A stretch of 64,000 bases of DNA from Rhodospirillaceae bacterium. Its GTDB lineage: Bacteria; Pseudomonadota; Alphaproteobacteria; UBA8366; Aestuariispiraceae. A program made the translations under genes and the position numbers. Under the pieces are notes generated by a model. That model was given only the letters and a program-made list of their open reading frames with translations. It was not told the origin of the DNA and did not search any database. The DNA is taken from NCBI GenBank assembly GCA_002709955.1, contig PAQY01000004.1, forward strand, positions 4,714-68,713, in the 5' to 3' direction. This document shows, in pieces, positions 6,913 through 63,215 of this stretch (its first letter is position 1; every line of letters starts with the position of its first letter).

Positions 6913-6965
6913 CTTTTGGGGCGAGGTCAGTACCAGCCAGGGGCCAGTGTTTCATGACCCAGACC

Positions 6966-6994: not shown

Positions 6995-7031
6995 TTGTAT
7001 GGACGTTAGATTTGCTCATCAGGAGTTCGCC

Positions 7032-7867: not shown

Positions 7868-7957
7868 TGGGACACCGGGTCGCTGACGGGTGGCAGAGTG
7901 TTGAACCGCCCCTATAAAAGGCGACTAATGCGCAACCCACGGAAAATACCGGAATGC

Positions 7958-9016: not shown

Positions 9017-9121
9017 GGCGGTCAACCCTGTTGCTGATATGGGGGGAAAACTTGCCTTGCCCCGCAGGTTTGTGCAAGGTCGCGCAATTCCAGAACACCA
9101 GCACAGGACAGGCATGCGACA

Positions 9122-9694: not shown

Positions 9695-9893
9695 CACAAA
9701 TTCCCAGAACTGCCGCAGCCTTGCCTTATTTCCGCCCCGATAGCAGGGCTTTTGTGGCAATCTATGGTATTGAAGGCTACGGTGGTAAGGGCTTCATGCC
9801 GGTTCGTTGGGGGAGTATCCCTGTGATTTTGGCTTGGGTGGATTGGTCGTGATGGATGACGGTCAACCCGTTTTGGTGAGGATGTAAAACCAA

Positions 9894-10604: not shown

Positions 10605-10632
10605 TATCAGGCTTTAAAGGGATGGTGGCGCG

Positions 10633-12411: not shown

Positions 12412-12518
12412 CACCCCTTCCTTTAGGATGCGCGACGTTTTGGCGTCTTGAGCGGGACCGGTTGCTTCGTCTAGTGTCCGGCCTTGGATTTTTAGGATGT
12501 AACAAAAGCGCAGGATCA

Positions 12519-13175: not shown

Positions 13176-13276
13176 GGTATTTTACAAAATCCATAGCGCC
13201 AAAAAGGATACTGGGTGTCGCGTTCACGCTTGACGATGCTGATGCGTCCGCGATACTGCTTAATGAAATGTGGATC

Positions 13277-13500
13277 GGTGCTCCTTTAAGGGCCTTAAGG
13301 TCTTGGAGCGAAGAGGGAACACAGGAAGGGTCTACCCATCAGGGGACCTGCGCCTGGGCCGCCCCCGCGACCGTGAGCGGTGAGTATCTTTTGGGTTTGC
13401 CACTGGGGCTTCGCGCCTTGGGAAGGCAGAAAGATACGATGATCCGTGAGCCGGGAGACCTGCCGAGTGACCACAGGATCTCAAGAAACCGTCGGGTGTG
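13277..13500 (+). promoter_or_regulatory. Cobalamin (B12) riboswitch
   Basis: The 300-base gap before cbtB contains the B12-box core AGCCGGGAGACCTGCC (13449-13464), with a GGTGCTCC-type beginning near 13277, a GGGAAcACAGG-like J segment around 13314-13326, and a paired domain between. These are the landmarks of the adenosylcobalamin riboswitch. Downstream at 13500-13513 is a GGGGGGAG purine run that is the likely ribosome-binding site of cbtB and could be occluded when cobalamin binds, which would make this a translational switch. Exact limits are approximate. Confidence 0.9.
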
Positions 13501-13517
13501 ACGGGGGGAGAAAAAGT

Positions 13518-13709
13518 ATGAAGACGCGTAACACGACGACAACGGCCGATCAGGCCTATCTTGCAAATCGGACACAGACCCTGGCTGCGGCGCTTACGGC
13601 CGCTGTATTTGGGTCATTTTTGTTCCTGGCGGTTGGTTTTGCCCATTCCGCAACGGTCCATAATGCGACCCATGATGCCCGGCACGCATTCGCGCTGCCC
13701 TGCCATTAA
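13518..13709 (+). CDS. cbtB: CbtB, cobalt transporter small subunit
   Basis: 63 residues, one membrane helix (AALTAAVFGSFLFLAVGFAH). The family signature is a histidine-rich C-terminus: here NATHDARHAFALPCH. CbtA and CbtB were proposed as a cobalt uptake system because they lie under B12 riboswitches; that is the case here. The ATG at 13518 follows the GGGGGGAG run. cbtA starts 122 bases further on. Confidence 0.93.
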   Translation: MKTRNTTTTADQAYLANRTQTLAAALTAAVFGSFLFLAVGFAHSATVHNATHDARHAFALPCH

Positions 13710-13831
13710 TCGCAGTGAAATGATGGGGATTTGGGTCGGGGGCCTTTTCGGCCCGATGGCCTATTGTACTCATTTCATCTCTATTGACCTATCGTGACGC
13801 GAAGACGCGCCGCGCATTTGGGGATATGTCC

Positions 13832-14602
13832 ATGTTCAAAAAGCTTTTCGGGGCGGCCTTTGCCGCCGGTATCGTTGCTGGTCTGTTGATCACCGGCATT
13901 CAGGAAGTCACCACAACGCCGCTTATTCTGCATGCGGAAGAATATGAAAATGGCGGGCATGATCATGCTGCCAGCCTTAAGTCAGACTATGTGATTATTC
14001 AGACCAAACTGTTTTCCACCCGCACGCCTGTCGGGTCGGAGAAGCTGTTCCTGGCGCATAGCAACAGCGGGACAGAAGGGCATGATCACGGCGAAGAGGA
14101 ATGGGGCCCGGAAGATGGCCTGGAGCGCACGCTCTATACATTGGGGGCCAATATCACGATGGGCATCGCCTTTGCCCTGATGCTGACAGCGGCCTTTGCC
14201 GTGCATGGCGGGGAAATGTCGGGCCGACGGGGCGTCCTGTGGGCAATGGGTGGTTTTGCCATGTTCACATTGGGTCCGAATCTGGGCCTGCCCCCAGAAG
14301 TGCCCGGTAGCATGGCGGCTGAACTTGGGGCCCGTCAGATGTGGTGGCTGGGCTGTGCCGCGGCGACCGGGATTGGCCTGTGTCTGATGGTATTCGGGCG
14401 CAAGATTGGTTTTGTCGTGCTGGGCATTCTGATCCTGATTGCGCCGCATGTCATTGGCGCGCCGCAGCCAGACGAAATCGGCGGTGGGGTGCCACCGGAA
14501 CTGGCGGGTCATTTTGCCGCCGCATCCATCGTGGTTGCCGCCGTTTTCTGGGCCATGCTGGGCTGGCTCAGCGGCACGTTCTACAAGCGGTTTGAGGCCT
14601 AA
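13832..14602 (+). CDS. cbtA: CbtA, cobalt transporter large subunit
   Basis: 256 residues with about five membrane segments (first one LFGAAFAAGIVAGLLITGI, then LGANITMGIAFALMLTAAFAV, ALLWAMGGFAMF-like, MWWLGCAAATGIGLCLMVFG and VVLGILILIAPHVIGAP). A histidine/acid-rich loop near the N-terminus (ENGGHDHAAS and EGHDHGEEE) could bind Co2+. This matches CbtA. ATG 13832 is 8 bases from a GGGG stretch; ATG 13826 is closer. The gene shares the riboswitch with cbtB. Confidence 0.93.
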   Translation: MFKKLFGAAFAAGIVAGLLITGIQEVTTTPLILHAEEYENGGHDHAASLKSDYVIIQTKLFSTRTPVGSEKLFLAHSNSGTEGHDHGEEEWGPEDGLERTLYTLGANITMGIAFALMLTAAFAVHGGEMSGRRGVLWAMGGFAMFTLGPNLGLPPEVPGSMAAELGARQMWWLGCAAATGIGLCLMVFGRKIGFVVLGILILIAPHVIGAPQPDEIGGGVPPELAGHFAAASIVVAAVFWAMLGWLSGTFYKRFEA

Positions 14603-14603
14603 A

Positions 14604-14745
14604 GCAAACCCCGAGCAGACGAAAGTCTGCGACGACGCGTTTGCTATAAAAATAAGAAGCCAGCGCATTTTGTGTGCGCTCATGCGGACGCATGATGCGC
14701 TGGCGCAAACCCCGAGCAGACGAAAGTCTGCGACGACGCGTTTGC
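14604..14745. repeat. BIME-like composite palindromic repeat
   Basis: Two identical 41-base copies (14604-14644 and 14705-14745). Each starts GCAAACCCCG, ends GCGTTTGC, and contains a GCAGAC-GAAA-GTCTGC hairpin. Between them lie a 10-bp inverted repeat GCCAGCGCAT (14659-14668) with ATGCGCTGGC (14695-14704) and an inner CATGCG-GA-CGCATG hairpin (14681-14694). It sits between the convergent ends of cbtA and the transporter gene, the usual place for REP/BIME elements. Confidence 0.85.
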
Positions 14746-14757
14746 GTAAAATGATTT

Positions 14758-15663
14758 CTAAAGCAGGTTCTGTTCAGCGGGATCTATCTGTTTGTTTAGG
14801 CGGTTTTCGCGCCAGGCAATGAAGATCCCGCTGGCAGTGACCATGCCACAGCCGATCCAGGTGGCCAGGGTCGGGAATTCCTGGAAGACATAATATCCAA
14901 CGATGGTGGATGTCACCATTTCCAGATAGGGCATGGGGGCCATGGCGGATGCTTCCAGCCGATCTGCCGCCCAGACAATCAGCCCATGGCCCAGTGTCAG
15001 GATCGCCCCCATAATGCCGATCATGCCCCATTGGCGGGGTGTGAAGGGCTGATAGACCGGAATCACCACCACGGACATCACCAGAACCCCGATGAACCCC
15101 ATCCACATCATCGTCACCATGGGCGGGTTATGGCCTGCAATTTTGCGGGTGACCAATAGATATCCGGCAAAGCAGGCAGCCGTCGCCAGCGCATACAGGG
15201 ACCCGGTCTGGAACGAGTCCGCACCGGGTCGCACGATCATCAGCATACCCAGAAAGCCAACCACCACGCCGGACCATCGCCAGATCCCGACACGCTCTTT
15301 CAGCACCAGTCCGGACAGGGCGGTGACCAACAGGGGTGCCACAAACAGGGTCGCGGTCATGGTCGGCAGGGGGATGGTCAACAGGCCAGTGAAGAAAAAG
15401 ACGGTCGCGGTGACCAAGAACAGGGCACGGATAACCTGGCCCCAGAAATGCTTGGGTCTCAGTGCGGTGCGTCCATAAAGAATAAGCACCAGTGGCGTCA
15501 TGATGGCGGCATGGGCGACCCAACGACCCCATCCGATCTGAAGGGGCGAAAGACCCTCCGCCCCCATCATTTTACCCAATGCATCCGCCAGGGGCAGCAT
15601 CAGGAAGCCCATTCCAGCGATCATAAATGCCAGGGACAGGCGGGGGCCTGGCACGGTTACCAT
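14758..15663 (-). CDS. DMT-superfamily (EamA) transporter
   Basis: 301 residues with ten predicted membrane helices in two EamA repeats. First repeat: LSLAFMIAGMGFLMLPLADAL to about VVGFLGMLMIVRPG; second: from YALATAACFAGYLLVTRKIAG. The RPG after the fifth helix and the GWGRW motif in the first loop are typical for the alphaproteobacterial RhaT/YdcZ-like exporters. Substrate cannot be told. It lies 27 bases downstream of lpdA on the same strand and may be co-transcribed with it. Confidence 0.9.
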   Translation of the reverse strand: MVTVPGPRLSLAFMIAGMGFLMLPLADALGKMMGAEGLSPLQIGWGRWVAHAAIMTPLVLILYGRTALRPKHFWGQVIRALFLVTATVFFFTGLLTIPLPTMTATLFVAPLLVTALSGLVLKERVGIWRWSGVVVGFLGMLMIVRPGADSFQTGSLYALATAACFAGYLLVTRKIAGHNPPMVTMMWMGFIGVLVMSVVVIPVYQPFTPRQWGMIGIMGAILTLGHGLIVWAADRLEASAMAPMPYLEMVTSTIVGYYVFQEFPTLATWIGCGMVTASGIFIAWRENRLNKQIDPAEQNLL

Positions 15664-15690
15664 TTTGTCATGACCTCACCCGATGCTGCA

Positions 15691-17094
15691 TTACATGTGG
15701 ATTGGGCGATTATCCACGGCCATGGCGGCTTCTTTCACGGCCTCAGAATAGGTTGGGTGCGCGTGGCAGGTCCGCGCGATATCTTCTGCCGAGCCGCCAA
15801 ATTCGATGATGGTCACGATCTCGTGGATGATATCGCCGGCACCCGGTCCAATGATATGGGCACCCAGAACCTTGTCGGTTTCCGCATCGGCCAGGATTTT
15901 CACGAACCCTTCGGTCGCATCATTCGCCTTGCCCCGTGAATTGGCAGAGAAGGGGAATTTCCCGACCTTATAGGCACGGCCTTCTTTTTTCAGGCGTTCC
16001 TCGCTGGCCCCGACATCGGCGACTTCTGGCCAGGTATAAATCACGCCTGGAATGGCGTCGTAATTGATATGGGGCTTTTGCCCGACCAGCATTTCTGCCA
16101 CGACAACGCCTTCATCTTCGGCCTTATGGGCCAGCATCTGACCGGGGATGCAGTCGCCGATTGCATAGATGCCATCGACATTGGTCTTGTAATGGGCATC
16201 CACCTGAATGACGCCCCGCTTGTCGCGCTCAACCCCCAATTCGTCCAGGCCCAGCCCGTCCGTATAGGGGCGGCGACCAATGCACAGCAGAACCTTGTCG
16301 CAGGTCATTTTTTCTGCGTCGCCGCCATCGGCGGGTTCCATGGTCAGTTCAACGCCGGATTTCACCTTCTTCGCGCCGGTGACTTTGGTCTTCATCTTAA
16401 AGTCCAGACCCTGCTTTTTCAGGATGCGCTGGAAGTTTTTTGAGACCTCGCCATCCATGGTCGGCGTGATGCGGTCCAGGAATTCGATCACGGTGACATC
16501 TGCCCCCAGGCGCTTCCAGACAGAGCCCAGCTCCAGCCCGATGACACCGCCGCCGATCACGACCAGATGCTTGGGCACTGCCTCAAACTCCAGGGCGCCG
16601 GTGGAGGTGACAATGGATTTTTCATCCACGTCGATCCCAGGCAGGGGGGTTGATTCCGACCCGGTGGCGATCAGGATGTTTTTTGTGGAAAGCGTCTTGC
16701 CCTTATCGTCGCCTTCGGTGACCGACACCGTGCCTGGCGCGTCGATATGGCCGCGACCTTTGATATAATCGACCTTGTTTTTCTTGAACAGAAACTCAAT
16801 GCCCTTGGTCAGGTCGCCCACGATCTTGGATTTGCGCGCCATCATCGCCTTCAGGTCCAGCTTGGGGCTGACCACGATGCCATGATTGGCAAAGGAATGT
16901 TGGGCTTCGTGATAGAATTCAGACGATTGCAGCATCGCCTTGGACGGGATGCAGCCGACATTCAAACAAGTGCCGCCCAGGCTGCCGCGCATTTCAACAC
17001 AGGCAACCTTCAGGCCCAGTTGCGCGGCGCGAATTGCCGCCACATAGCCGCCCGGCCCGCCGCCAATCACTACCAGATCATATGTATCAGCCAT
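15691..17094 (-). CDS. lpdA: Dihydrolipoyl dehydrogenase (E3)
   Basis: 467 residues, normal length. Reoxidises dihydrolipoyl groups of 2-oxoacid dehydrogenase complexes with NAD+. FAD site [20 protein letters not shown], redox disulfide [16 protein letters not shown] site [20 protein letters not shown], second FAD motif [22 protein letters not shown], and the C-terminal catalytic HAHPTYSEA (His-Glu pair from the partner subunit). No E1/E2 genes are nearby, so this is a stand-alone E3, possibly shared by several complexes. Confidence 0.97.
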
Positions 17095-17171
17095 CGTCTA
17101 AACCCTCATATCTGTCATTGCTGCATCATTGTGCGGACAGTGCCCCAAAGACACGCGCTGGGCAAGTGTGG

Positions 17172-17227
17172 CGGGTAAAATGGACGGGGCAAAATGGACG
17201 GGGTAAAATGGACTGGGCAAAAGGATA
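17172..17227. repeat. 14-bp tandem repeat
   Basis: Four consecutive 14-base units upstream of the small exported protein gene: CGGGTAAAATGGAC (17172-17185), GGGGCAAAATGGAC (17186-17199), GGGGTAAAATGGAC (17200-17213) and a diverged TGGGCAAAAGGATA (17214-17227). No function is visible. Confidence 0.8.
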
Positions 17228-17328
17228 TTTGGCCTATGGGCTTTTGACACCGCCATAATTCAGCCCCACATATATTTTAAGGAACCGGGATAAGACCCAA
17301 TTGTGCGACTTGTTGAAAGGAAACGCTT

Positions 17329-17613
17329 ATGCGCCGTCTCATTCTCGCTTCTGCTGTGGCCGCCCTGATCGGGGGAACGGCTGTATCGGGCATTGCCTGG
17401 GCTGAGGAAAACAAAAGCCCGGAATCCTTAGCGGCAGAGGGATTGCAACAGGTCATGCGGGCGATGGAAATGTTCATTTCAAACATCCCCCTATATGAAG
17501 CACCGGAAGTCCTGCCCAATGGGGATATCATCATCCGCCGGGTACAGCCCGATGACGCCCCCAAAGACAAGGACGCTGATAAGAATGATCCTGGGACAAC
17601 AAAGGATATTTGA
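17329..17613 (+). CDS. Small exported protein of unknown function
   Basis: 94 residues. Signal peptide with basic start MRR, core LILASAVAALIGGTAVSGIA and cleavage after AWA. The mature protein begins EENKSPESLAAEGLQQVMRAMEMFI, an amphipathic helix, then PLYEAPEVLPNGDIIIRRV, then an Asp/Lys-rich tail. Similar short proteins with LPNGDIIIRR occur in alphaproteobacterial genomes, but I know of no function. It stands alone on the plus strand, after the 14-bp tandem repeat, and 118 bases before the GntR gene. Confidence 0.7.
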   Translation: MRRLILASAVAALIGGTAVSGIAWAEENKSPESLAAEGLQQVMRAMEMFISNIPLYEAPEVLPNGDIIIRRVQPDDAPKDKDADKNDPGTTKDI

Positions 17614-17731
17614 AAACTTTTGCGGTGGCCGGTGAAGGCGAAAAGTGATTTTTGTGAATTCTGTTGCGATGCGGGGGCGTCGCTCGCACACTGTGATCAC
17701 ATTCAAAGATTACAGCCTGACAGGCGCATGT

Positions 17732-18433
17732 ATGGCATCTGACGATCAACATCCCCCGGACACGATCCCAACGGCAACCTTGCAAGAGCGGGTGTATCGC
17801 GAATTGCGTGAAGCCATCATGCTGGGCCAGTTTCATCCAGGCGATGCGATGACAATCCGGGGACTGGCGGAAAAGCTGGGGACCAGCATGATGCCCGCAA
17901 GAGAGGCTTTGCGCCGGCTGGTGGCAGAACGGGCGCTGACCTTGCTGCCCAATCGACGGGTTGCCGTGCCCCGTATGACGCCGGAAACCTTTCGGGAATT
18001 GACGGAAGCGCGTGTCGCGCTGGAGGTTCTGGCGGCCCGGCGGGCCTTTCCCGCCACGGATCCGGCCCTGGCAGACCGTCTGGCCGCGATCAATACCCAG
18101 CAGGATGAAGCGATTGCCGCCGGGGATTGGTCTGGATACCAGGAACGAAATCGCGCTTTTCATTTTGCCCTTTATGCCTGTGCGCCGGCGCAGGTGCTGA
18201 TGCCCCTGATCGAAAGCCTGTGGCTGCAGATTGGCCCGTTTCTGTATCTGACGCGGGAGAGCCTGGGCACGACCTATCTGGACGACCGCCATGAAGAGGC
18301 GATTGCTGCGATCAAGGACCGGGACGAAGATGGTCTTGCCCTGGCGATAGAACAGGATATTCGCGATGGGATGGGTGGATTGCCAGCCTTGTTGGCAAAT
18401 CGGGTTCCCCCACCGACAGGAGGGCCGGAATGA
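17732..18433 (+). CDS. GntR-family regulator, FCD (FadR) subfamily
   Basis: 233 residues. Winged helix-turn-helix at residues about 20-85 (LQERVYRELREAIMLGQF, RGLAEKLGTSMMPAREALRRL, then LTLLPNRRVAVP), followed by an all-helical FCD effector domain with metal ligands Asp/His of the type ERNRAFHFALY and DRHEEAIAAI. Start ATG 17732 (MASDDQHPP) is preferred; the frame stays open back to 17645. Its stop overlaps the next start (ATGA at 18430-18433), so it is coupled to the PuuE-like gene and probably controls it. Confidence 0.92.
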   Translation: MASDDQHPPDTIPTATLQERVYRELREAIMLGQFHPGDAMTIRGLAEKLGTSMMPAREALRRLVAERALTLLPNRRVAVPRMTPETFRELTEARVALEVLAARRAFPATDPALADRLAAINTQQDEAIAAGDWSGYQERNRAFHFALYACAPAQVLMPLIESLWLQIGPFLYLTRESLGTTYLDDRHEEAIAAIKDRDEDGLALAIEQDIRDGMGGLPALLANRVPPPTGGPE

Positions 18434-19332
18434 CCCAGACGAAACGCGATCTGGTCGGCTATGGCCGCACACCGCCAGATGCCCAATGGCCAAAGGGGGC
18501 CCGCATCGCCGTCAATTTCTGCCTGAATTATGAGGAAGGGGCAGAGCGGCATATCGACCATGGCGATGGCCAATCTGAGAGCATTCTGCATGAAGTCGGC
18601 GGCGATCCCCGCATCGGCGCGCGCGATCTGAATTCAGAAAGCATGTATGAATATGGGTCCAGGGCCGGATTCTGGCGGGTGCTGAAATGTTTTGAAGATC
18701 GCGGGCTGGATTTCACCATCAATGCGGTGGGCCAGGCCCTGACACTGAACCCGGATGCGGCCCAGGCGATTGCCGACAGTGGGGCTGATATTCATGCCCA
18801 TGGCTGGCGCTGGATCGATTATGCCGATATGCCGGAAGATCAGGAACGCAGCCATATCCGCCAGACTGTTGCGGAAATTGAACGCCTGATCGGGCGGGCG
18901 CCGGTCGGGTGGTATACCGGGCGGCCCAGTCTGAACACCCGCCGTCTGGTGATTGAACAGGGCGGGTTTCTGTATGATTCCGATTCCTATGCGGATGATC
19001 TGCCCTATTGGTGTTATGACTATGGGCGACCGCATCTGATCCTGCCCTACAGCATTGATACCAATGACAGCCGGTTTTTCCGCACCAGCGGCTTTGTCAC
19101 CGGGGATGATTTCTTTCAGTATAATCGCGACGCCTTCGACATCCTGTATCAGGAAGGCGGGCGCATGGTGACGGTGGGGCTGCATGCCAGACTGATCGGG
19201 CGTCCGGGGCGGATTGGTGGATTAATGCGGTTGCTGGACCATATGATGGCGCAAGACGACGTCTGGATTGGCCGGCGGGAAGACATTGCCCGTCACTGGA
19301 TCGCCACGCATCCCCCTACAGAAGAGCGATAA
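18430..19332 (+). CDS. puuE: Polysaccharide deacetylase family, PuuE-type allantoinase
   Basis: 300 residues. The fold is a NodB-type deacetylase, and the extended N-terminus MTQTKRDLVGYGRTPPDA with NYEEGAERHIDHGD, the ESMYEYGSRAGFWRVL stretch and HAHGWRWIDY match the metal-independent allantoinase PuuE group. That enzyme opens the allantoin ring in purine catabolism. Other members of the group act on different amides, so the substrate is only probable. The gene is coupled to the GntR regulator by 4 bases and its 3' end overlaps the convergent cbiB by 17 bases. No other purine genes are in the window. Confidence 0.8.
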   Translation: MTQTKRDLVGYGRTPPDAQWPKGARIAVNFCLNYEEGAERHIDHGDGQSESILHEVGGDPRIGARDLNSESMYEYGSRAGFWRVLKCFEDRGLDFTINAVGQALTLNPDAAQAIADSGADIHAHGWRWIDYADMPEDQERSHIRQTVAEIERLIGRAPVGWYTGRPSLNTRRLVIEQGGFLYDSDSYADDLPYWCYDYGRPHLILPYSIDTNDSRFFRTSGFVTGDDFFQYNRDAFDILYQEGGRMVTVGLHARLIGRPGRIGGLMRLLDHMMAQDDVWIGRREDIARHWIATHPPTEER

Positions 19333-20359
19333 TACCGCCGCACAGGATCGCAAACCACAGCAGCAGATTGGCGACGATATAAAGCGCCCGGGACCGGTCG
19401 ATATCGCGGGGTTCCAGCCGGGCGCGGCCATCCCCGATCCAGACGCCGACAACCTCTCCGCCCGGATAGGTGCGCGGGCCCCCCAATGCGATATTCAGCG
19501 CCCCGGCAAAGGCCCCTTCGGGCCAGCCGCCATTGGGGGATTTGTGCTTTCTGGCATCCCGCAGCATGGTCTTTACCGCGCCGATGGGATAGCTGGTGGG
19601 CGTGAAACAGGCGGCCAGACAGACCAAAGCGCCACTGATCCGGGCGGGCAGCCAATTGGCCAGATCGTCCAGTTTGGCGGCGGTAAAGCCAAAGGATCGG
19701 TATTTCGCGGTCTTATAGGCGATCATGCTGTCTAGGGTATTGATCGCCTTATAGGCCAACAGGCCGGGCAGGCCGAACAGCAGATAAAAGAAGATGGGGG
19801 CGACAACCCCATCGCTGAAATTCTCCGACAGGGATTCAATTGCAGACCGGGCGACGCCATGCCGATCCAGGCTTTTGGGGTCGCGGCTGACGATATGGGC
19901 GATGGCGCGGCGACCGCCTTCCAGCCCATCGACGCGCAGGCCGGTGCCAACCCGTCGCACATGATCGTGCAGGCTGCGCGCCGCCAAAAGAATGGAAACC
20001 ACCAGGGCTTCGACCATCCAGCCCCAATGGACACTGTCCAGCAATCGATCCAGGCCATAGCCGATGGCGGTACAGGTCCCAACCACCAGCAAGACCGTCA
20101 CGGCCCCCCGCGCCAGTCGGTCCTTTTCCCCCCGATCTTGGCGGTTCAGGCGACGATCCAGAAAGGCAATCGGCTTGCCGATCAAGACAACAGGATGGGG
20201 GATCAGACGATACAGCCAGCGGGGATCACCGATGAGGGCATCGATCAGCAGGGCCAATGCCAGGATGAGGGCCAGCGGTGGACTGGGGGGCAGGGCGCCA
20301 AAGAAAGCAGCGGCCCCATCCGAAATGGTGGCCCCAATCGTGGGCAGTATCGTCTCCAT
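19316..20359 (-). CDS. cbiB: Adenosylcobinamide-phosphate synthase
   Basis: 347 residues, integral membrane protein. Adds the aminopropanol side chain to adenosylcobyric acid in cobalamin synthesis (CbiB, also called CobD). Family markers: ALLIDALIGDPRWLYRLIPHPVVLIGK at the N-terminus, ESLSENFSDGVVAPIFFYLLFGLPGLLAYKAINTLDSMI in the middle, and SPNGGWPEGAFAGALNIALGGP near the C-terminus. About five to seven membrane segments. No other cobalamin synthesis genes are nearby, but cbtBA lie 5 kb away and carry a B12 riboswitch, so cobalamin metabolism is evidently active. Confidence 0.96.
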   Translation of the reverse strand: METILPTIGATISDGAAAFFGALPPSPPLALILALALLIDALIGDPRWLYRLIPHPVVLIGKPIAFLDRRLNRQDRGEKDRLARGAVTVLLVVGTCTAIGYGLDRLLDSVHWGWMVEALVVSILLAARSLHDHVRRVGTGLRVDGLEGGRRAIAHIVSRDPKSLDRHGVARSAIESLSENFSDGVVAPIFFYLLFGLPGLLAYKAINTLDSMIAYKTAKYRSFGFTAAKLDDLANWLPARISGALVCLAACFTPTSYPIGAVKTMLRDARKHKSPNGGWPEGAFAGALNIALGGPRTYPGGEVVGVWIGDGRARLEPRDIDRSRALYIVANLLLWFAILCGGIIALL

Positions 20360-53492: not shown

Positions 53493-54449
53493 AGGCTTGG
53501 TCGTGGGGCCAATGATGCCCGCAAGCGAGACCTTCAGCTTGAAGCGAAATCCCATATCACCGTCCAGAAATGGATTGATGGCGGTGGGTTGAAGGACACA
53601 GCGATGTCGCTGGACAGCATCCTGGCAATCCATAGCCGTTTCTGTGACCTGCTACCTCCTGACATGCTTTGGGTTGAAGATCCTGATACTGGCAAGAAAT
53701 ACCCCCTTGTGCCCGGAGAGCTGCGCCAGCGCGATGTAAAAGTTGGCAAGCATGTCGGAGTCAGTCCCGGTGCTGTGCCCAGATTCCTGACTCGTTTTGA
53801 AATGGCCTATGCGAAACTAGGCAAGGTGGATGCGATTCTGGCCGCTGCCGCCGCTCATCATCGTTTGCTTTGGATTCACCCGTTTATGGATAGTAATGGT
53901 CGTGTTGCAAGGCTCATGACTCATGCCATGCTGCTTGATGCCCTGGATACGGGCTCTGTTTGGTCGGTGTCCCGTGGGCTTGCCCATAACGAAGCCAAGT
54001 ACAAAGCCCGACTGGCGGCTTGTGATCTTGACCGTCGCAACGATCTGGATGGTCGTGGTACGCTCAGTGAAGAAGAACTGGCGAAATTCACCCATTTCTT
54101 TTTGGAAATCTGTCTGGACCAGGTCCGCTTCATGCGCGACCTCGTCGAGCCTAACAAGTTACGCGCGCGCATCCTGATATGGGTTGAGGAAGAGATTAGA
54201 ACGGACGCCCTGCCGCCAAAGGCAGGTGCGGTCCTTGAGGCCATTCTTTACAGAGGTGAACTCCCCCGGCGCGATGTTCCGAAGCTTTTAGGCATGACAG
54301 ACCGGCACGCGCGGAGGATTACATCCGCCCTCTTGAAAGCAGAAGTTCTTACCTCTGATAATGACCGCGCGCCACTGCGACTTGCTTTCCCCGCACGTCT
54401 TGCCGCGCGTTGGATGCCTGGACTGTTTCCTGAACAGCCAGGAGCATGA
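53493..54449 (+). pseudogene. Fic-family gene lacking its 5' end
   Basis: About 318 codons. Fic signature HPFMDSNGRVAR (H-P-F-x-D-x-N-G-R), the AMP/phosphoryl transfer site, lies in AAAAHHRLLWIHPFMDSNGR. It is followed by an intact C-terminal helical region ending WMPGLFPEQ. Homology to Fic proteins starts at 53493 (RLGRGANDARKRD) with no start codon, directly after an in-frame stop at 53490 and the phoX terminator; the first possible starts are TTG 53589 and ATG 53604. The missing N-terminal portion would include the inhibitory alpha-helix and recognition part. The gene is probably a remnant, though a shortened protein from 53604 cannot be excluded. Confidence 0.75.
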
Positions 54450-56079: not shown

Positions 56080-57870
56080 TTATTCCGCCGCGCTGCGGGT
56101 GGTCAGCATGGTCGGGCTGGGCAGGTAATCTTCGATAGTGACCGGGTCCACCTGGCTGGGGTCCAGGAATTCATCCGCATAGGTTTTCCAGACACCAGAG
56201 CGCAGGAACAGGTCGAACAGATCCGCATCAATGTGCTGGTCCTTGCACATGAATTTCATGATTTTCAGCGACTCGCTGACCGTCTTGGCCTTTTTATAGG
56301 GGCGGTCGGCGGCGGTCAGGGCCTCAAAGATATCGGCAATTGCCATGATGCGCGCGGGGATCGACATATCTGCCTTGGTTAATCCTTTTGGATAACCGGT
56401 CCCGTCCATCTTTTCATGGTGACCGCCCGCATATTCCGGGACCCGCCGCATCTTTTTCGGGAAGGGCAATTGTTCCAGCATCTTGATGGTCACGACGATA
56501 TGGTCGTTGATCTTTTCGCGCTCTTCCGCTGTCAGGGTTCCACGTCGGATCGACAGGTTGGTCAATTCGCCCAGGTTATAATTGCCCGTCTTGTGTTCCG
56601 GCAGGTCCCCGATCAGGGGTTCTTGGGCCGGGGCAGGCGGTGGCGGGTTCTTTGCAACCAACATGGCCTCTGGCGGGCTCAACCCAATGCCCTTGTCGAA
56701 ATAGCGAGTCCAGCTTCGTTGCCCAATCTCTTTCAGGCGCTCAATATCGGCATCGTCCATGAACTCCCCGCCAACATTCGCATTGGCGACGAACGCATAT
56801 TCTTCCTGCAGCTTATCCACCGCGAATTGAAAGTCCCGATCACAGGTATCGGGGTCTTCCCCGGCAAGCTTCCGCTTCAGGCATTCAATTTCCGCATCCC
56901 GGTGCATCACCTCAAATCGGGTGCGAACCTCATGAATGCGGTTATAGATCGTCTCCAGCTTGGACGCCTTATCGACGACATATTCCGGTGTCGTGACCTT
57001 CCCGCAATCGTGCAGCCAGGCCGCGATGTGCAATTCGTACCATTCGTCTTCGTCCAGGTCGAAACCGGCGAAAATGCCTTCTTCGGATTCGCAGGCCGCT
57101 TTTGCCAGCAGCTTAGTGATTTCCGGCACGCGCTGACAATGGCCGCCGGTATAGGGCGACTTGTCATCGATCGAGGCTGCGATCATCTCGATCAAGGAAT
57201 TCCACAGCGCCCGTTGCTGCTGGATCAGCATCTGATTTTCCAGCGCCACAGCCGCCTGGCTGGTCAATGCCTCGATCATCGGCTGAAGCGAGGTTTCAAA
57301 GGCGATGGTGTTGCTGGTCTGGTCCCGCGCATTGATCAATTGCAGCACGCCAATGACTTCGCGCTGGGTATTGATCATCGGGACGGTCAGAAAGGATTTT
57401 GACCGATAGCCCGTTGTCTCATCAAATTTCTTGGTGCCGGAAAAGTCGTATTCCTGAGCCTCATAGGCATCCACGATATTGCTGGCCACGGCCTGATGAT
57501 ACACGGCTGACGCCACATTGTTCATATTCTTGGACGAATCAGACCGATACAGTGGCACTGGAGGGAAGGGGATTTTCTTTCCCGTTGTGCCGCCCATGGA
57601 AATATTCAGCGTGTCATTGCGCATAATCTGGAACGACAGGCCGGTTTCATCGTCGGTCACCAGATACAGGGTTCCGCCATCGGCGTTATAGATATTCTTG
57701 GCTTCCAGCAGGATCATTTCCATCAGGCGGTCATGATCTTTTTCCGACGACAGCGCGATCCCAAGCTCCACCAGACGATGGATCATCTTTTCGCCCGCGC
57801 GGCGTCCAAACCGGTCTTCGCGCCGGTTGTCCTCTGTCAGCTGACTGTTAATGTCTGAATCTTGTTCCAT
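56080..57870 (-). CDS. GAF-HD-GYP phosphodiesterase
   Basis: 596 residues. N-terminal GAF domain (residues about 25-210; LVELGIALSSEKDHDRLMEMIL and the conserved FLTVPMINTQREVIGVLQLINA), then HD-GYP with HDCGKV (about 287) and HHEKMDGTGYPKG (about 484). Between the two halves lies a long insert of roughly 140 residues, partly acidic, containing NPPPPAPAQEP. Predicted to hydrolyse cyclic di-GMP, with the GAF domain as sensor. Start ATG 57870 (MEQDSDIN); TTG 57921 also in frame. It sits next to the cyclase operon, so second-messenger genes are grouped. Confidence 0.92.
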   Translation of the reverse strand: MEQDSDINSQLTEDNRREDRFGRRAGEKMIHRLVELGIALSSEKDHDRLMEMILLEAKNIYNADGGTLYLVTDDETGLSFQIMRNDTLNISMGGTTGKKIPFPPVPLYRSDSSKNMNNVASAVYHQAVASNIVDAYEAQEYDFSGTKKFDETTGYRSKSFLTVPMINTQREVIGVLQLINARDQTSNTIAFETSLQPMIEALTSQAAVALENQMLIQQQRALWNSLIEMIAASIDDKSPYTGGHCQRVPEITKLLAKAACESEEGIFAGFDLDEDEWYELHIAAWLHDCGKVTTPEYVVDKASKLETIYNRIHEVRTRFEVMHRDAEIECLKRKLAGEDPDTCDRDFQFAVDKLQEEYAFVANANVGGEFMDDADIERLKEIGQRSWTRYFDKGIGLSPPEAMLVAKNPPPPAPAQEPLIGDLPEHKTGNYNLGELTNLSIRRGTLTAEEREKINDHIVVTIKMLEQLPFPKKMRRVPEYAGGHHEKMDGTGYPKGLTKADMSIPARIMAIADIFEALTAADRPYKKAKTVSESLKIMKFMCKDQHIDADLFDLFLRSGVWKTYADEFLDPSQVDPVTIEDYLPSPTMLTTRSAAE

Positions 57871-58004: not shown

Positions 58005-60296
58005 TTATTTGCTGGTCGCGATATAGACGCCATCCCAATTTTCTGGCGGGGGATTTTGGCGGTATTCGTCGATGCGTTCCTGATAAATTGCGTAAAATCC
58101 GTCCATCCGACCCGCCAACTTTCCGGTCAGCGCTTTCAGAAGGCCTTCCGCCTGATCCCATTCCTGCGCGCGAAAGGCGGAAAGCAGGTCTTCATGGTGG
58201 CGGGCATGGTCCAGAAATTCCTGGGACTGTCTAAGATCGCTGCGCCCGATGCAGGTTGCGATTGTCACAGCCTCGGACTTGCCCTTCACTGCGATTCGAT
58301 CCAGTTCCAGTGTTGCGAAATCATCCGCAACGGCATGCCATGTGTCAGTGCCCAGGACAATGCCTACCCCATAGCTCTTTGACTGGCCCTCCAAACGCGA
58401 CGCCAGATTCACGGCATCCCCCAAAACTGAATAGTCAAAGCGCTGGGCTGATCCCATATTCCCAACTACGCAATCGCCTGTATTGACCCCAATGCCAATA
58501 TTCAGTGGCAGGAAGGGGTCACCCGCCGCCTGTGCTTCCGCCTCCCGCGCATTGTTTAATGTTTCCAGGGCCTCGAACATCGACAAGGCGGCTTCGCAGG
58601 CGTTTTTGGGGTGATTCGGGACGTCCAGCGGCGCATTCCAGAAGGCCATGATACAATCGCCCATATATTTGTCGATTGTCCCCCGGCGATCCAGAATACA
58701 ATCCGTCAAGGGTGTCAGGAAACGATTGATCAGCAGGGTCAGCCCCTGGGGATTGCCCTTAAAGCTTTCCGAAATCGTGGTGAATCCGCGAACATCGCAA
58801 AACAGGAAGGTCAGTGTCTTTGTCTCGCCCCCCAGTTTCAGGCGTTCAGGCTGGTCTGCTAGTTGCTGTACCAGATCCGGGGAGAGATAATGCGCGAAAG
58901 CACCGCGAATCTGGCGGCGCTGAGATTCTTCCCGAACGAACAGTATTACGGTTCCTGTCAGATAGATTGCCAGCGTCGCGCCGCTGGGGAAAACGGGGTC
59001 GAACAGTTGCAGATGCTGGGTGAACATCATCCAGGCGAAACCAAAGGCCCCGATGACGCAGACCCCGCCAAACAGCGCGGATCTGGCGGCCCCCAATCGC
59101 GGCATTGCGGCGATTAACAGCAGGCCCAGAATCAGGATAAAGCCCAGCTCAAAATAGAATGCTGTCCCGGGTCTTTCCAAAAAATGATCGCTGATGATCT
59201 GTTCGGCGATTTCAGCATGGATCTCCACCCCTGGATATTGCGAGGCCAAGGCGGTTGCGCGCAAATCCAGCAGGCCCGCTGCTGTCGCACCGACAAATAC
59301 GATTGCCCCCTGGACAAGCGCCGGATCAAAGGTGCCGTTCAATACGGATTGTGCTGAGATGAACCGATCTTGCTGGTGGCCACTGGAATGCAGCCAGATT
59401 CGGCCAAAAGGATCTGTTGGAATGGTCTTTGCCCCAATCTGGATATTGGCCAGACCGTTCACATTGCCCTGTTCCAACAGGGATGCGGTGCTGTCAGTTC
59501 CCGCCGCCCGCACGATCATGGTTTTAACCCCCTGGACCGTGCGAAAGGCTTCTGCGACCAGGGATGGATATAACAGCGTGTCCCCCCCATTCTTGGGATC
59601 CAACTGGAAAATCACCGGCACGCGGCGAACCAGACCATCCTGTTCCAGGCGCATGCTGAAGCTGCCATTGCCAGACGCGGCTTTCTCAAAAATCGGCAGA
59701 TTGGTGACGGCGCCCGTATAAACGGGTTTCAGGAAGCGTCGCACATCGCCCGCATTCAGGCCCTTGGTCGCAAAGGTTCCATCAAAATCCGGTATGCGGG
59801 GCAGGCGCTCGTCCTGGCTGAGCACGAATCCCAGAACCACGGGGTTCAATGCCTCCAGATATTGGGCAAAGGCCGCATCGAAGTCTGGCAGGTTCTTAAT
59901 CTGCTCCATCAGGTCTTCGGCCCCTTCAAGAACAGACCATTCCTTAACGGCATTGGGGGGAGAAATGCGGTCCGGTTCCGAAAACACAATATCAAAGGCG
60001 ACCACCGCCGCACCGGCCTGGCGCAGGTTCAGAACCATCTGGGCAATTGTCAGGCGCGACCAGGGCCATTGACCCTGGGCGGCCAGGCTATCCTCGTCAA
60101 TATCGATAATCCGGACGGGAATATCGGCGTTTGGATTGTAATCTCTAGGATAGGCGCGCATCAATTCGTCAAATACCGCGAATTGCAGCCCCTCCAGCCA
60201 ATTGGGCTCTGACGCACGCACAAAAAGGGCGCTGATCAACAGCAGAAGCGGCGCCCAGAAATGTGCTTTTTTCCCAAACCAGATCATGGCCGACAT
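58005..60296 (-). CDS. CHASE2-domain class III adenylate/guanylate cyclase
   Basis: 763 residues. An N-terminal membrane segment, an extracytoplasmic CHASE2 sensor domain (residues about 30-330, PVRIIDIDEDSLAAQGQWPWSR and IVFVGATAAGLLDLRAT), three membrane helices (about 340-430), then a cyclase domain with LFCDVRGFTTISESF, GTIDKYMGDCIMAFWNAPLDV, and ALNIGIGVNTGDCVVGNMGS. Both metal Asp residues are present. Makes cyclic AMP or GMP in response to an unknown periplasmic signal. Third gene of the operon after the barrel protein and FecR protein. Confidence 0.94.
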   Translation of the reverse strand: MSAMIWFGKKAHFWAPLLLLISALFVRASEPNWLEGLQFAVFDELMRAYPRDYNPNADIPVRIIDIDEDSLAAQGQWPWSRLTIAQMVLNLRQAGAAVVAFDIVFSEPDRISPPNAVKEWSVLEGAEDLMEQIKNLPDFDAAFAQYLEALNPVVLGFVLSQDERLPRIPDFDGTFATKGLNAGDVRRFLKPVYTGAVTNLPIFEKAASGNGSFSMRLEQDGLVRRVPVIFQLDPKNGGDTLLYPSLVAEAFRTVQGVKTMIVRAAGTDSTASLLEQGNVNGLANIQIGAKTIPTDPFGRIWLHSSGHQQDRFISAQSVLNGTFDPALVQGAIVFVGATAAGLLDLRATALASQYPGVEIHAEIAEQIISDHFLERPGTAFYFELGFILILGLLLIAAMPRLGAARSALFGGVCVIGAFGFAWMMFTQHLQLFDPVFPSGATLAIYLTGTVILFVREESQRRQIRGAFAHYLSPDLVQQLADQPERLKLGGETKTLTFLFCDVRGFTTISESFKGNPQGLTLLINRFLTPLTDCILDRRGTIDKYMGDCIMAFWNAPLDVPNHPKNACEAALSMFEALETLNNAREAEAQAAGDPFLPLNIGIGVNTGDCVVGNMGSAQRFDYSVLGDAVNLASRLEGQSKSYGVGIVLGTDTWHAVADDFATLELDRIAVKGKSEAVTIATCIGRSDLRQSQEFLDHARHHEDLLSAFRAQEWDQAEGLLKALTGKLAGRMDGFYAIYQERIDEYRQNPPPENWDGVYIATSK

Positions 60297-60328
60297 TTAG
60301 ATCAGAAAAGAGTGATTATGGTACAAAA

Positions 60329-61684
60329 TCACATGCCAGTGCTGAGCGTTGCGCTGCCTGTTCCGGTTCCGCCATTATGGCTGACCGAAAGTTCCAGTGA
60401 ATTCGTTCCGGTAAATGTAACGCCGCCGGTGCAACTGCTGCAGGTTCCGGTATTGTTGTTGGATCCGATGGCGAAGCTGGAGGTCAAGTCGTTCACGGAC
60501 ACACCGCTTCCGGAATTCAGGATAACGGTCCCAATATTTGTCGACCCCTGTGTCAGGTTGCCTGTCTGAATATCCACGGTGCGGGCCGAAAAATTGACAT
60601 TGGTGTTGAAGCTGCCGATTATCGCGCCGGTCAGGTCCCCTGACCCGCTGACGCTGCTTTCCCCGGAAAATGCCGCAGCGATATCGGCATAGGTGAAACC
60701 CCGACTGTTGCTGGCCAGATCATTTGTATTGGCGACATCCTGAGACTGGCTTGTACTGGTGGTGGTGGTGCTGATCGTGTTCACCTGTTTGAAGGAGGTG
60801 TCATTCGATACATTGGATTGGGCCTGGGCATTCTCGGTACCGCCGCTTTCCGTGTTGGTATCCGGGGAATTGGATTGATCACCAGATGAGTCATTGCCGC
60901 TGTCGGCGTTTGAACTCTGATTGTTTCCCCGCGCCGATAGACCGGTGCTGATCTGTTGCAGGGCGCTGGGTGGGGCAATAAAAAACACAGGTGTCTGCCC
61001 TGGCGTTGCCAGAACGGCACCGCCCGGACGATTCAGGTCCACAGATCCATTGGGCGTGGAAAAGGTGAACGACCCGATCGGCGCGCCGGTCTGGGTCAGC
61101 GGCCCAGGTCCAGACAGGGCTGCGAAGACCACCGGCTGTGGATTACCAGATGGATCTTGGATACCTTGATTCTGTTGTTCCATCTCCTGCGGGAAAATTT
61201 CAGTTGCTTGTTCTACGGTCAGGATGGCCACATCGCCAAGGGTCCCGCGAATCCCAATGGTGCCGACCGGCAATTTGATCGTCATGTTCTGGGGATTGCC
61301 AGACGATACCTTCCCTGTCACGAACCGCATCACCCCCTTGGTCATATTGGCGGCAAGCGAGCCCTGTCCTGTCGCGGGGTCGTAGACAAAGGTATCGATG
61401 GAAATTTCACTTTCCGGACCGATGGTGAAGACGGTTTCATCCAACAGCATGATCTGCATGCCAGATTCCGGCCCTGATGTGACGGCATCGTTCAGGAAGA
61501 TCGGCTCGCCACTGTCGATTTGCCGTCCGACCGCATCGACGCGCGCAACACTGACCTGACCTTGCACGGCCGCGGAAACACCGGCCTGCACCAGGTCTTG
61601 CGAAACGGCTGGACCGAAGGGCAGCAGGACCAGCGCGGCAACAGCGCAAATCTGTGAGGTAAGAGGGCGTGTCGCATATGTCAT
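60329..61684 (-). CDS. FecR-domain exported protein
   Basis: 451 residues. Signal peptide (ICAVAALVLLPFGPAVSQ, cleavage near VSQ). Residues about 60-150 form the FecR domain: LNDAVTSGPESGMQIMLLDETVFTIGPESEISIDTFVYD and GVMRFVTGKVSS, with TIGIRGT. The middle is low-complexity Asn/Ser/Gln/Thr-rich (residues about 240-320, for example TTTTSTSQSQDV). The C-terminal part is a beta-rich, Gly/Thr/Ser-rich domain. ATG 61684 has GAAGGGA upstream. FecR-like proteins next to CHASE2 cyclases have been seen in other Alphaproteobacteria; a periplasmic role between barrel and cyclase is inferred. Confidence 0.88.
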   Translation of the reverse strand: MTYATRPLTSQICAVAALVLLPFGPAVSQDLVQAGVSAAVQGQVSVARVDAVGRQIDSGEPIFLNDAVTSGPESGMQIMLLDETVFTIGPESEISIDTFVYDPATGQGSLAANMTKGVMRFVTGKVSSGNPQNMTIKLPVGTIGIRGTLGDVAILTVEQATEIFPQEMEQQNQGIQDPSGNPQPVVFAALSGPGPLTQTGAPIGSFTFSTPNGSVDLNRPGGAVLATPGQTPVFFIAPPSALQQISTGLSARGNNQSSNADSGNDSSGDQSNSPDTNTESGGTENAQAQSNVSNDTSFKQVNTISTTTTSTSQSQDVANTNDLASNSRGFTYADIAAAFSGESSVSGSGDLTGAIIGSFNTNVNFSARTVDIQTGNLTQGSTNIGTVILNSGSGVSVNDLTSSFAIGSNNNTGTCSSCTGGVTFTGTNSLELSVSHNGGTGTGSATLSTGM

Positions 61685-61700
61685 CGGGCCGATCCCTTCG

Positions 61701-63215
61701 TCAAAAATCAAAGCTGCGCGACAGCAGAAGCTGGATGCGCTTATTTTCAGTCTGGTAGTTTGTGATATTGGAGCGCTGGTAGCGATATTCCCCGGTCAGA
61801 GAGATTGTCGTCTCTTCGGCAAAAGACAGGAATTCCGCGTTTTGTGCGCGCTGTTCCTGTATCCAGTCCGACCCGATCAATTCTGATAGGGGCATCCCAT
61901 AGGTCATGCGAACACGAAAGGGCTGTTCCAGGCGGTGAACCCCGTTTTGCACCAAGGGGTCCGGGTGTTTGTACTGTCTTGTGCCCAGCATCACGCTACT
62001 GACCAGAAATTTCCCGTTTTCGAGGATCCAGGTATGGTTCGCCTCAACATTTTGATAGGAGTATGAGAAGGTCTTCGCCCCATTGTTTCCACTATCGGCG
62101 GCACCGCTCTTATATTGAGATTGCGCGACCAGAGAGACATAGTGATCCGGGAATAAAAGCGTTCCAACCCCCAGCTCCACATCTGATTTCTTGCCGCTGC
62201 GCAGGGTTAAGGTCTGGAAATCAGGTGTGTTGTGATAGTTTTCATCCTGACCGGAGACCAGAAACCAGGTGTCCAGCAGGGCGGCGTCCGGGTCGGGCAG
62301 ACGGATCTTGTGGTCCAGCCGCAATTCCGCGCCTTTTGAGGTATAAAACTTGTTCCAGCCGATGCGCATGTTGGACAGGAAAACCCGAGGGGCGATGGTG
62401 ATGCTGGGATAGCGCCAGCGGAATCCCAGATCCGTATTCAGGGCATGAATATCCAGCTTGTTCTGTTCGGACAGCGTATCCCCATACAGATCAACGCCGC
62501 CAAAGAATTCATGCTGGTTCTGAAGGCCCGGATCATGGGTGAAGTCGTATCCCAATATTGTCAGCAACCCGATATCGCCGTTTGGGCGATCCCGCTCCAG
62601 GGCAATCGGACTGCGCGCACCAAAGGCCAACAGACTTTCCGAAACGGGTGCTGCATTTCGATTGGTATCGGCGTAAACGCCAACACTGACCCGGACTGAT
62701 TGTTTGGTTGCCTGTTGTTGCTGTTGAATGTCGGAAAGGTATGTATTGACCTGCTGGCGCACATCGTCCGGCAGGTCTGCTTCGGCGACAGTTTGAAATT
62801 CGCGTTCTGCGCCGGCCAGATTGTCCAGACGATACAAAATAATGGCATATAACAGGCGAACATTCAGCGCCTCAGGGGCGATCAGCAAAACCCGCTCCAG
62901 CGTGGCCAGCGCCCCCTTCACATTGCCGTCCTGAATCTGTGTCCGCGCGTAACAGACATTCAAGGCGGTGTCGTCTGGATTGGACAGGACATCTGCAAAG
63001 GTGACCGGCGGGCAATTCGGGTCATTCATCGCTGTAATGGCGGCGCTGGTCGCCTGCCTGATGTCATTTAAGGCCGGCGTGCCTTGCTGAGCCTGATCAA
63101 TTTGCTGGTCCAGAGAGTTCTGCGCGACCTGCTGGGCACCAACGCCCCCTGCAGGAAAAATCCACACAACAGTGGTTAGAAGAATCGAAAGAATAAAAGA
63201 ATGCTTTTGGTCCAT
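61701..63215 (-). CDS. Outer-membrane barrel protein with TPR domain
   Basis: 504 residues. Sec signal (FILSILLTTVVWIFPAGGVGAQ). Residues about 60-160 form TPR-like helical repeats (NVKGALATLERVLLIAPEALNVRLLYAIILYRLDNLAGAEREFQTVAEADLP). The rest is a beta-barrel of about 300 residues ending in a terminal Phe (RIQLLLSRSFDF), the usual outer-membrane insertion signal. The family with TPR plus barrel resembles surface lipoprotein assembly modifiers (Slam-type). GAGGAAG precedes ATG 63215. It is the first gene of an operon with the FecR protein and the cyclase. Confidence 0.85.
   Translation of the reverse strand: MDQKHSFILSILLTTVVWIFPAGGVGAQQVAQNSLDQQIDQAQQGTPALNDIRQATSAAITAMNDPNCPPVTFADVLSNPDDTALNVCYARTQIQDGNVKGALATLERVLLIAPEALNVRLLYAIILYRLDNLAGAEREFQTVAEADLPDDVRQQVNTYLSDIQQQQQATKQSVRVSVGVYADTNRNAAPVSESLLAFGARSPIALERDRPNGDIGLLTILGYDFTHDPGLQNQHEFFGGVDLYGDTLSEQNKLDIHALNTDLGFRWRYPSITIAPRVFLSNMRIGWNKFYTSKGAELRLDHKIRLPDPDAALLDTWFLVSGQDENYHNTPDFQTLTLRSGKKSDVELGVGTLLFPDHYVSLVAQSQYKSGAADSGNNGAKTFSYSYQNVEANHTWILENGKFLVSSVMLGTRQYKHPDPLVQNGVHRLEQPFRVRMTYGMPLSELIGSDWIQEQRAQNAEFLSFAEETTISLTGEYRYQRSNITNYQTENKRIQLLLSRSFDF

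Follow-up and report, generated by a model that had tools for sequence, protein, structure and literature searches.

In type XI secretion (Slam/DUF560/SlipAM), a translocon with tetratricopeptide repeats (TPR) and a 14-strand barrel is encoded next to a signal-sequence protein with a variable N-terminus and a C-terminal small barrel, as set out in two surveys of these systems (PMC8406197, PMC12282271). fHbp, TbpB and the haemophilins have been described as Slam or type XI cargo (PMC8406197, PMC12282271, PMC9090332), and all seven experimentally verified type XI translocons are reported to come from an animal-associated cluster (PMC12282271). In the model proposed for Slam, a C-terminal motif of the unfolded cargo is recognized and the chain is moved outward, the N-terminal lipid anchor being the last part to flip (PMC9090332). 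A separate literature concerns CHASE2 sensors, whose sensory input was called unknown in 2016 (PMC5192318). In a Campylobacterota cluster described in 2022, a CHASE2 adenylate cyclase, a phosphodiesterase, a FecR-domain outer-membrane protein and a TPR protein were proposed to form one pathway, and horizontal transfer was noted (PMC9239204). The Burkholderia BiofilmReg operon encodes a LysM-FecR protein and a CHASE2 histidine kinase (PMC5192318); in Sinorhizobium, CyaD1 with CHASE2 deleted produced cyclic AMP (cAMP) constitutively, and the targets of Clr include a FecR protein and a TPR protein (PMC5498481); and in magnetotactic bacteria a CHASE2 cyclase gene comes after mtxA (PMC4439547). Here we describe an operon for a TPR-barrel protein, a FecR-domain protein and a CHASE2 nucleotidyl cyclase in a 64,000-nucleotide stretch, which we call the window, of a Rhodospirillaceae bacterium genome (GCA_002709955.1, contig PAQY01000004.1, positions 4,714 to 68,713).

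We tentatively favor the view that this operon is a secretion-linked signaling unit, in which a FecR-tethered protein would be exported in a Slam-like manner and read by the CHASE2 cyclase. The operon resembles type XI loci in its TPR and 14-strand barrel, homologous to Slam across the whole barrel, and in the adjacent gene for a protein with a putative signal sequence and a predicted C-terminal small barrel. It differs in that the barrel is too divergent for PF04575, in that the N-terminus of the predicted cargo is a FecR domain plus linker, and in its linkage to a CHASE2 cyclase and an HD-GYP protein, without a TonB receptor. Neither 'fecr' nor 'cyclase' appears in the main text of either survey of type XI systems (PMC8406197, PMC12282271). 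The co-occurrence of FecR, CHASE2 and TPR genes is already in print, and the Campylobacterota cluster holds a closely similar set of gene kinds; by its description, however, the TPR protein is not named a translocon there, nor the FecR protein a cargo (PMC9239204). In BiofilmReg, as described, a FecR protein gene likewise adjoins a CHASE2 sensor gene, but a histidine kinase replaces the cyclase, LysM replaces the cargo barrel and no translocon is mentioned (PMC5192318). No paper linking Slam, FecR cargo and cyclase was found among those examined from an open-licence library. The features of the operon are as follows.

61701-63215, minus strand: protein of 504 amino acids (aa) with TPR and a predicted 14-strand outer-membrane barrel, a probable distant relative of Slam / type XI translocons (Pfam, AlphaFold2 (AF2), hhalign)
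61704-62708, minus strand: barrel part of this protein, residues 170-504 (14 strands in the model; hhalign)
60329-61684, minus strand: FecR-domain protein, 451 aa, with an SPI-like non-lipidated signal sequence (by eye) and a predicted Slam-cargo C-terminus
61070-61597, minus strand: FecR domain region, residues 30-205
60695-60979, minus strand: low-complexity S/T/N/Q/G linker of the FecR protein, residues 236-330
60332-60694, minus strand: C-terminal small beta-barrel of the FecR protein, residues 331-451 (fHbp/NHBA/haemophilin/TbpB-barrel fold in the model)
58005-60296, minus strand: CHASE2 class III nucleotidyl cyclase, 763 aa, with CHASE2 at residues 22-392 and the catalytic domain at 492-678

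A first-pass annotation of the window had described these three genes as co-directional and tightly spaced, which holds: all lie on the minus strand, with gaps of 16 and 32 bases. The start of the FecR gene was taken as the ATG at 61684; its longest open reading frame (ORF) begins with a TTG at 61711 and overlaps the barrel gene. In the cyclase, Pfam finds CHASE2 (3.3e-55) and Guanylate_cyc (2.7e-19), and the translation shows what we take to be active-site motifs; the predicted product is probably cAMP. Within the named genome collection, a Rhodospirillales metagenome-assembled genome (L004) is the nearest relative, with a cyclase identity of 96%.

For the TPR-barrel protein, Pfam sees TPR-type repeats only (TPR_19, 3.4e-09), and a PF04575 scan of 28 genomes missed every window-clade barrel, so that profile-profile comparison was required. 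The AF2 model, based on 24 aligned relatives, has a mean predicted local distance difference test (pLDDT) score of 83; it is helical over residues 50-167 and forms the 14 strands of the barrel over residues 170-503. We chose barrel-only alignments to take out the contribution of the TPR to Slam similarity. Compared in this way by hhalign, 16 window-clade rows match 25 Slam sequences with a probability of 99.7 and an E-value of 3.8e-26 over 291 columns (25 of 30 Slam loci were used; of the five omitted, four were fragmentary or broken and one had an in-frame stop). Controls of the same type gave 9.7e-7 for PF10082 (218 columns), 7e-4 for Porin_4 and 0.015 for reversed Slam, with control ORFs obtained from 23 of 24 PF10082 loci and from 20 Porin_4 loci. 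Of the 24 aligned relatives, 13 match the SlipAM model at E<=0.1 (best 6.5e-10) and 19 match TPR_Slam, while the barrel of one divergent relative, L060, exceeds the SlipAM cut-off (26.7 vs 22 bits). Among solved structures, the barrel model matches CymA (Z 22.7, root-mean-square deviation (rmsd) 3.7, 283 aligned) and OmpG (Z 20.6, rmsd 3.4, 264 aligned), both of them 14-strand porins. From alignment and model together, we are highly confident that the barrel is a Slam-like relative of type XI translocons.

The FecR protein begins with a putative signal sequence, in which no lipobox is seen by eye, and continues through a FecR domain and a low-complexity linker of 95 residues to its C-terminal domain. 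FecR (PF04773; 3.9e-07, 30.9 bits vs a cut-off of 24) is its only Pfam match at E<=1. The linker is the Ser/Thr/Gln-rich middle to which the first-pass annotation had rightly pointed; 64% of residues 236-330 are S, T, N, Q or G. The C-terminal domain, modeled on residues 324-451 (pLDDT 80), has nine strand segments by DSSP, two of them of 3-4 residues, and its predicted fold is a small barrel of the TbpB/fHbp type, a type that has eight strands. Chains of haemophilin, NHBA, TbpB and PmSLP take Foldseek ranks 1-10, with E-values of 9.5e-4 to 0.018. Alignment by VIA-align gave Z 10.3 for the C-terminal barrel of fHbp (rmsd 3.2, 112 aligned), Z 9.5 for NHBA (rmsd 2.8, 100 aligned) and Z 8.7 for haemophilin (rmsd 3.4, 106 aligned). 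NHBA, too, is a Slam/type XI cargo.

Divergent relatives of the FecR protein extend this likeness to sequence. The slam_lipo family is matched at the C-termini of L060 (7.3e-7) and L039 (1.7e-7), both below the family cut-off, and not at those of L055 and L061; 4 of 23 FecR-protein C-termini match it. By hhalign, five divergent C-termini align to 28 slam_lipo regions at an E-value of 5e-11, one of the 28 cargo rows (L211) having probably been read in the wrong frame. When the five divergent rows were included in the C-terminal profile, a PDB sequence search returned fHbp or NHBA for 18 of 19 matches (best E 0.0018); four of the 18 are labeled 'lipoprotein' only, and the 19th is a nanobody. The C-terminal domain of the window clade itself is conserved as far as bins labeled Elusimicrobia and Omnitrophota (hhalign 6.8e-8). 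We consider it likely, chiefly from the predicted fold, that the C-terminal domain of the window protein is of type XI cargo type.

The barrel and FecR genes travel together. We scanned 28 genomes of the order, counting barrels at E<=1e-15, and found 15 barrels in 13 genomes; a FecR-domain match starts directly downstream, at most 300 bases away, in 15/15. Three of these loci lie at contig ends, which leaves 12 that are testable for the cyclase, and a CHASE2 cyclase stands next to the pair in six of them (G000, G009, G010, G012, G014, G019). At three of the six cyclase-less loci (G007, G008, G013), FecR is followed directly by a GAF-HD-GYP homolog. These counts make barrel and FecR a fixed pair, with the cyclase as a frequent partner.

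A second sample was approached from the cyclase: 80 of its relatives from named records, with neighbors sought within 6 kb. The barrel-only Slam profile matches ORFs of at least 300 aa (E<=1e-3) at 29/80 loci, and 27 of these 29 also have FecR within 6 kb; at the other two (L038, L049) the barrel lies at most 0.5 kb from a contig end. TPR proteins near L045 (TPR-only by Pfam), L048, L053, L059 and L074 are matched by the full barrel profile and, in 0/5 cases, by the barrel-only profile, and were excluded from the Slam counts. At the 50 loci flanked by 3 kb or more on both sides, barrel and FecR occur together in 23 cases and singly in none; type I secretion ATP-binding cassette (ABC) and HlyD genes take their place in 9, and the other 18 lack all of these genes. 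The association outlives rearrangement, as gene order and strand differ among L044, L055, L061, L062, L065 and L067. Mapped on a tree built from 81 cyclases, the Slam label clusters, with 10 changes vs a shuffled mean of 24.3; well-supported branches force at least 4 changes, and the 10 are an overcount, since some 'none' labels (L005 and L008 among them) are contig-end effects. The nine type I-neighbored cyclases (L054, L068, L070, L072, L076, L078, L079, L080, L083) fall in a part of the tree without Slam-linked rows.

FecR and CHASE2 are also neighbors more broadly. In the 28 genomes, a listed FecR match lies within 5 kb of at least 24 of 84 CHASE2 hits, vs about 1.2 expected, and within 15 kb of at least 31 of 84, vs about 3.5 expected; these are lower bounds, because proximity was computed on 150 listed FecR rows and not on all matches. 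The 84 hits are those of 85 that remain after omission of an overlapping piece of a gene in G016, a genome without a FecR match. FecR adjoins CHASE2 also where neither the full nor the barrel-only profile finds a Slam in the stretch. Some of these Slam-less FecR proteins stop at the FecR domain, at 146 to 174 aa (L199, L201-L205, L207); others extend into tails, which are often acidic or rich in glycine/asparagine or in proline. With the rows that built the C-terminal domain profiles excluded, the domain is present in 13/16 complete Slam-adjacent FecR proteins vs 1/22 Slam-less ones (Fisher p 1.3e-6, relatedness ignored). The Slam-adjacent count excludes L109 and L110, which are cut by contig ends; L117 duplicates L050, whose FecR row built the profiles. 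The 22 Slam-less rows, from 19 stretches, exclude L058 and L206 (cut by contig ends) and L008 (Slam position off the contig) and include L207, which has no CHASE2 gene nearby; the stretches were picked for FecR near CHASE2 and are not a random sample. L104 and L107 give no match to the domain, though by eye their ends resemble those of L103 and L106.

Some barrel-FecR loci are arranged differently. Two tandem FecR genes, each with a match to the C-terminal domain, follow the Slam-like barrel at L062 (4852-7654) and L067 (5936-8460); three of these four FecR rows went into building the profile. G010 and G012 each have a second barrel-FecR copy (L106 and L107), and there the pair is followed by small ORFs of 141 and 251 aa, which have no Pfam match at E<=0.1; no cyclase or HD-GYP homolog is found in the stretch.

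LapA-type adhesins, which are secreted by the type I route, have an N-terminal periplasmic module with the remainder of the protein outside. A protein with both a FecR domain and a LapA-retention-like match is encoded beside another CHASE2 cyclase of the window's genome (4.23 Mb, 24 contigs, 3 CHASE2 matches), in the following region.

L236 (G000:C11:572001-591868): second CHASE2 cyclase and giant FecR region, with features at 1739-4114, 4209-16493 and 16803-19868

The second cyclase (G000:C11) lies 94 bases behind a FecR ORF of 4,094 aa on the same strand. The FecR domain of this giant protein (residues 235-342) overlaps a match to the LapA retention module (residues 203-268; E 3e-10, 40.5 bits, below the cut-off of 50), and there is an RTX repeat match slightly below cut-off; the protein is adhesin-like. 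Genes for type I secretion ABC and HlyD-family proteins are divergent from it. By eye, G003 has similar neighbors, with FecR in a 1,042-aa ORF, and in G019 a 1,968-aa FecR ORF lies 1.6 kb upstream of a CHASE2 gene. A retention-module match is also present in the Slam-linked FecR protein of L055 (E 5.9e-7, 29.8 bits, below cut-off), whose C-terminus belongs to the five divergent rows that resemble cargo. The window operon shares with LapA the idea of an N-terminal periplasmic module; it differs in the route (Slam-like vs type I) and in having no LapD/LapG control within the operon, and here it would be the FecR module that is retained.

Two further genes of the minus strand flank the trio.

56080-57870 (from the ATG), minus strand: GAF-HD-GYP protein (Pfam)
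63452 to beyond 64000, minus strand: metallo-beta-lactamase (MBL)-fold metallo-hydrolase, 3' part, the gene continuing beyond the end of the window

The order is thus MBL-fold, TPR-barrel, FecR, CHASE2 cyclase and GAF-HD-GYP, with intergenic gaps, by ATG starts, of 236, 16, 32 and 134 bases. The first-pass annotation had the trio and the following HD-GYP gene right, and omitted the upstream MBL-fold gene. The HD-GYP protein, whose longest ORF begins with a TTG at 57921 and whose first ATG is at 57870, has an HD_5 match (5.1e-45, Pfam), HD and HHEKxDGxGYP motifs visible in the translation and also a GAF domain. The MBL-fold gene is the upstream neighbor of the barrel in close relatives of the window (L004, L050, L102, L103, L104, L110); 23 homologs occur in 22 of 112 stretches examined, most of which contain a CHASE2 cyclase. 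That it encodes the phosphodiesterase of the cluster is a guess. Elsewhere in the window, ORF 53589-54449 resembles a Fic-family protein and carries, by eye, HPFMDSNGR, differing from what we take to be the usual Fic motif, HPFxDGNGR.

In the mechanism that we propose, the TPR-barrel protein would recognize the FecR protein by its C-terminal small barrel and pass the chain, C-terminus first, to the surface. By analogy with the C-terminus-first model for Slam, the FecR domain would be the last part to leave. Lying on the far side of a long disordered linker, it could fold in the periplasm and lag or stay there; folding, or binding to CHASE2, would hold it back, with the linker in the pore. There it may be the contact partner of the CHASE2 domain of the inner-membrane cyclase, so that cyclase activity, probably with cAMP as the product, would be set by whether the exported protein is ligand-bound, pulled, exported or stalled. 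The GAF-HD-GYP protein would act on cyclic di-GMP alongside.

Several results weigh against this reading. The window barrel has no direct PF04575 match in a Pfam scan, though some relatives do, and we therefore call it a Slam-like relative and not a PF04575 member. PF10082 barrels themselves align to Slam (hhalign E 2.3e-12), so outer-membrane barrel families are not cleanly separate, although the window clade is still much nearer Slam; and no Slam structure is among the matches listed for the barrel model, the fold match being to general 14-strand porins. For the C-terminal domain, the AF2 alignment behind the model contained 5 divergent rows, a single Foldseek match reaches E<=0.001, and unrelated small barrels (Ail, OmpA, a designed barrel) reach VIA-align Z 7.3 to 8.1. 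The window-clade C-terminus gives no significant match to Slam-dependent lipoproteins (hhalign E 0.018, probability 2.6), and when the divergent rows are left out of the PDB profile search, retinol-binding proteins come first (0.025), with TbpB at 0.13, so that the cargo case for the window protein comes from structure. The FecR protein of L108 is Slam-adjacent yet lacks the domain, and L116 has the domain without a neighboring Slam, its genome holding Slam-like genes elsewhere; L115 looks like L116 by eye, but gives no match to the domain. Slam is believed to carry its cargo across in full (PMC9090332), so retention of the FecR domain is something that we infer, and what points to FecR-CHASE2 contact is gene neighborhood. 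The cyclase, finally, is not adjacent at 6 of the 12 testable barrel-FecR loci, and at 27 of the 50 well-flanked CHASE2 cyclase loci both barrel and FecR are missing within 6 kb. An obligate three-gene unit spanning the envelope is not supported by these counts, independent occurrence of the genes in relatives being a condition under which the first-pass annotation itself would have its proposal refuted. What stands of that proposal is a recurrent neighborhood, with products spanning outer membrane, periplasm and inner membrane; co-occurrence across genomes is likewise confirmed for the trio, which recurs at 27/80 cyclase-relative loci with Slam-like barrel and FecR within 6 kb. The marine relative Thalassospira lucentensis (L007) has the trio as well.

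The same data can be read as no more than co-regulation. The Slam-like channel and the FecR protein would then be an ordinary surface or secreted pair, such as an adhesin or binding protein with its exporter, and the cyclase and HD-GYP would be nearby since both serve attachment or biofilm control, with CHASE2 sensing something else. The cyclase-less half of the testable loci fits this, as do the examined flanks of Thalassospira loci, in which no HD-GYP homolog was found, and the 9/50 CHASE2 cyclase loci beside type I secretion genes with no FecR within 6 kb. Hitch-hiking, however, poorly explains why FecR-CHASE2 proximity persists without Slam and across gene orders and strands, and we find co-regulation possible but doubtful. 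An export checkpoint, which we hold to be unlikely, fits the sequence data nearly as well as secretion-linked signaling. Here the whole FecR protein would normally be secreted, and failed or slow export would let its periplasmic FecR domain engage CHASE2 and report translocon capacity, much as RcsF reports outer-membrane assembly defects. The lipobox-less signal sequence (by eye) and single C-terminal barrel do resemble soluble type XI cargo as the surveys describe it, and FecR-domain-only proteins of ~150 aa stand beside CHASE2 genes with no Slam in the stretch. The checkpoint shares the gaps of our own proposal, as sequence cannot tell a retained from a transient FecR domain; the below-cut-off LapA retention-module matches in the giant FecR protein and L055 favor retention.

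Two readings make the barrel something other than a translocon. A FecR sigma regulator combines an anti-sigma N-terminal domain with a linked extracytoplasmic function (ECF) sigma factor and a TonB receptor, and the first-pass annotation had cast the barrel as the receptor in such a FecA-FecR-like relay, sensing a ligand and signaling through periplasmic FecR to a CHASE2 cyclase that replaces the sigma factor. The FecR domain, the envelope order of the three products and their recurrent clustering agree with this. The barrel, however, is Slam-related and 14-stranded with TPR, and Pfam and NCBIfam scans gave it no match to the plug or barrel models of TonB receptors; a FecA-like receptor was dropped on the hhalign Slam homology, the barrel grouping with Slam/type XI translocons instead. 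Pfam finds no sigma factor or TonB receptor in the four operon proteins, so the operon differs from FecA-FecR-FecI in having neither TonB-dependent transducer nor ECF sigma factor, and the FecR protein, with FecR as its sole matched domain, carries its own cargo-like barrel. We judge the relay very improbable. More improbable still is export of polysaccharide through a TPR-porin of BcsC/PgaA/PelB type under FecR-cyclase-HD-GYP control. BcsC and PelB are among the Foldseek matches of the barrel, and PgaA and BcsC are weak NCBIfam matches far below cut-off; these matches being weak, the candidate was rejected. The Slam homology is far above that to the two non-Slam families compared (PF10082 and Porin_4, which are not the BcsC/PgaA families), and no polysaccharide-enzyme match was found in the four operon proteins or the MBL-fold gene.

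Secretion-linked signaling may also be one instance of something wider. Possibly, though we think it less likely than not, FecR-CHASE2 is a general bacterial module for sensing a cell's own exported surface proteins, in which FecR would be an N-terminal, periplasm-retained handle and a CHASE2 cyclase or kinase would read that handle. The export route would vary, being Slam-like here and type I for the giant protein, and the window operon would be a Slam-routed, threaded trans-envelope sensor. The locus offers a testable candidate partner for CHASE2, the FecR-tethered protein, and suggests that a divergent branch of Slam has FecR-domain cargo as a class. Should the FecR domain remain in the periplasm with the C-terminus outside, bacteria could monitor one exported molecule from across both membranes, and through the operon the cell may be able to sense what state its exported surface protein is in.

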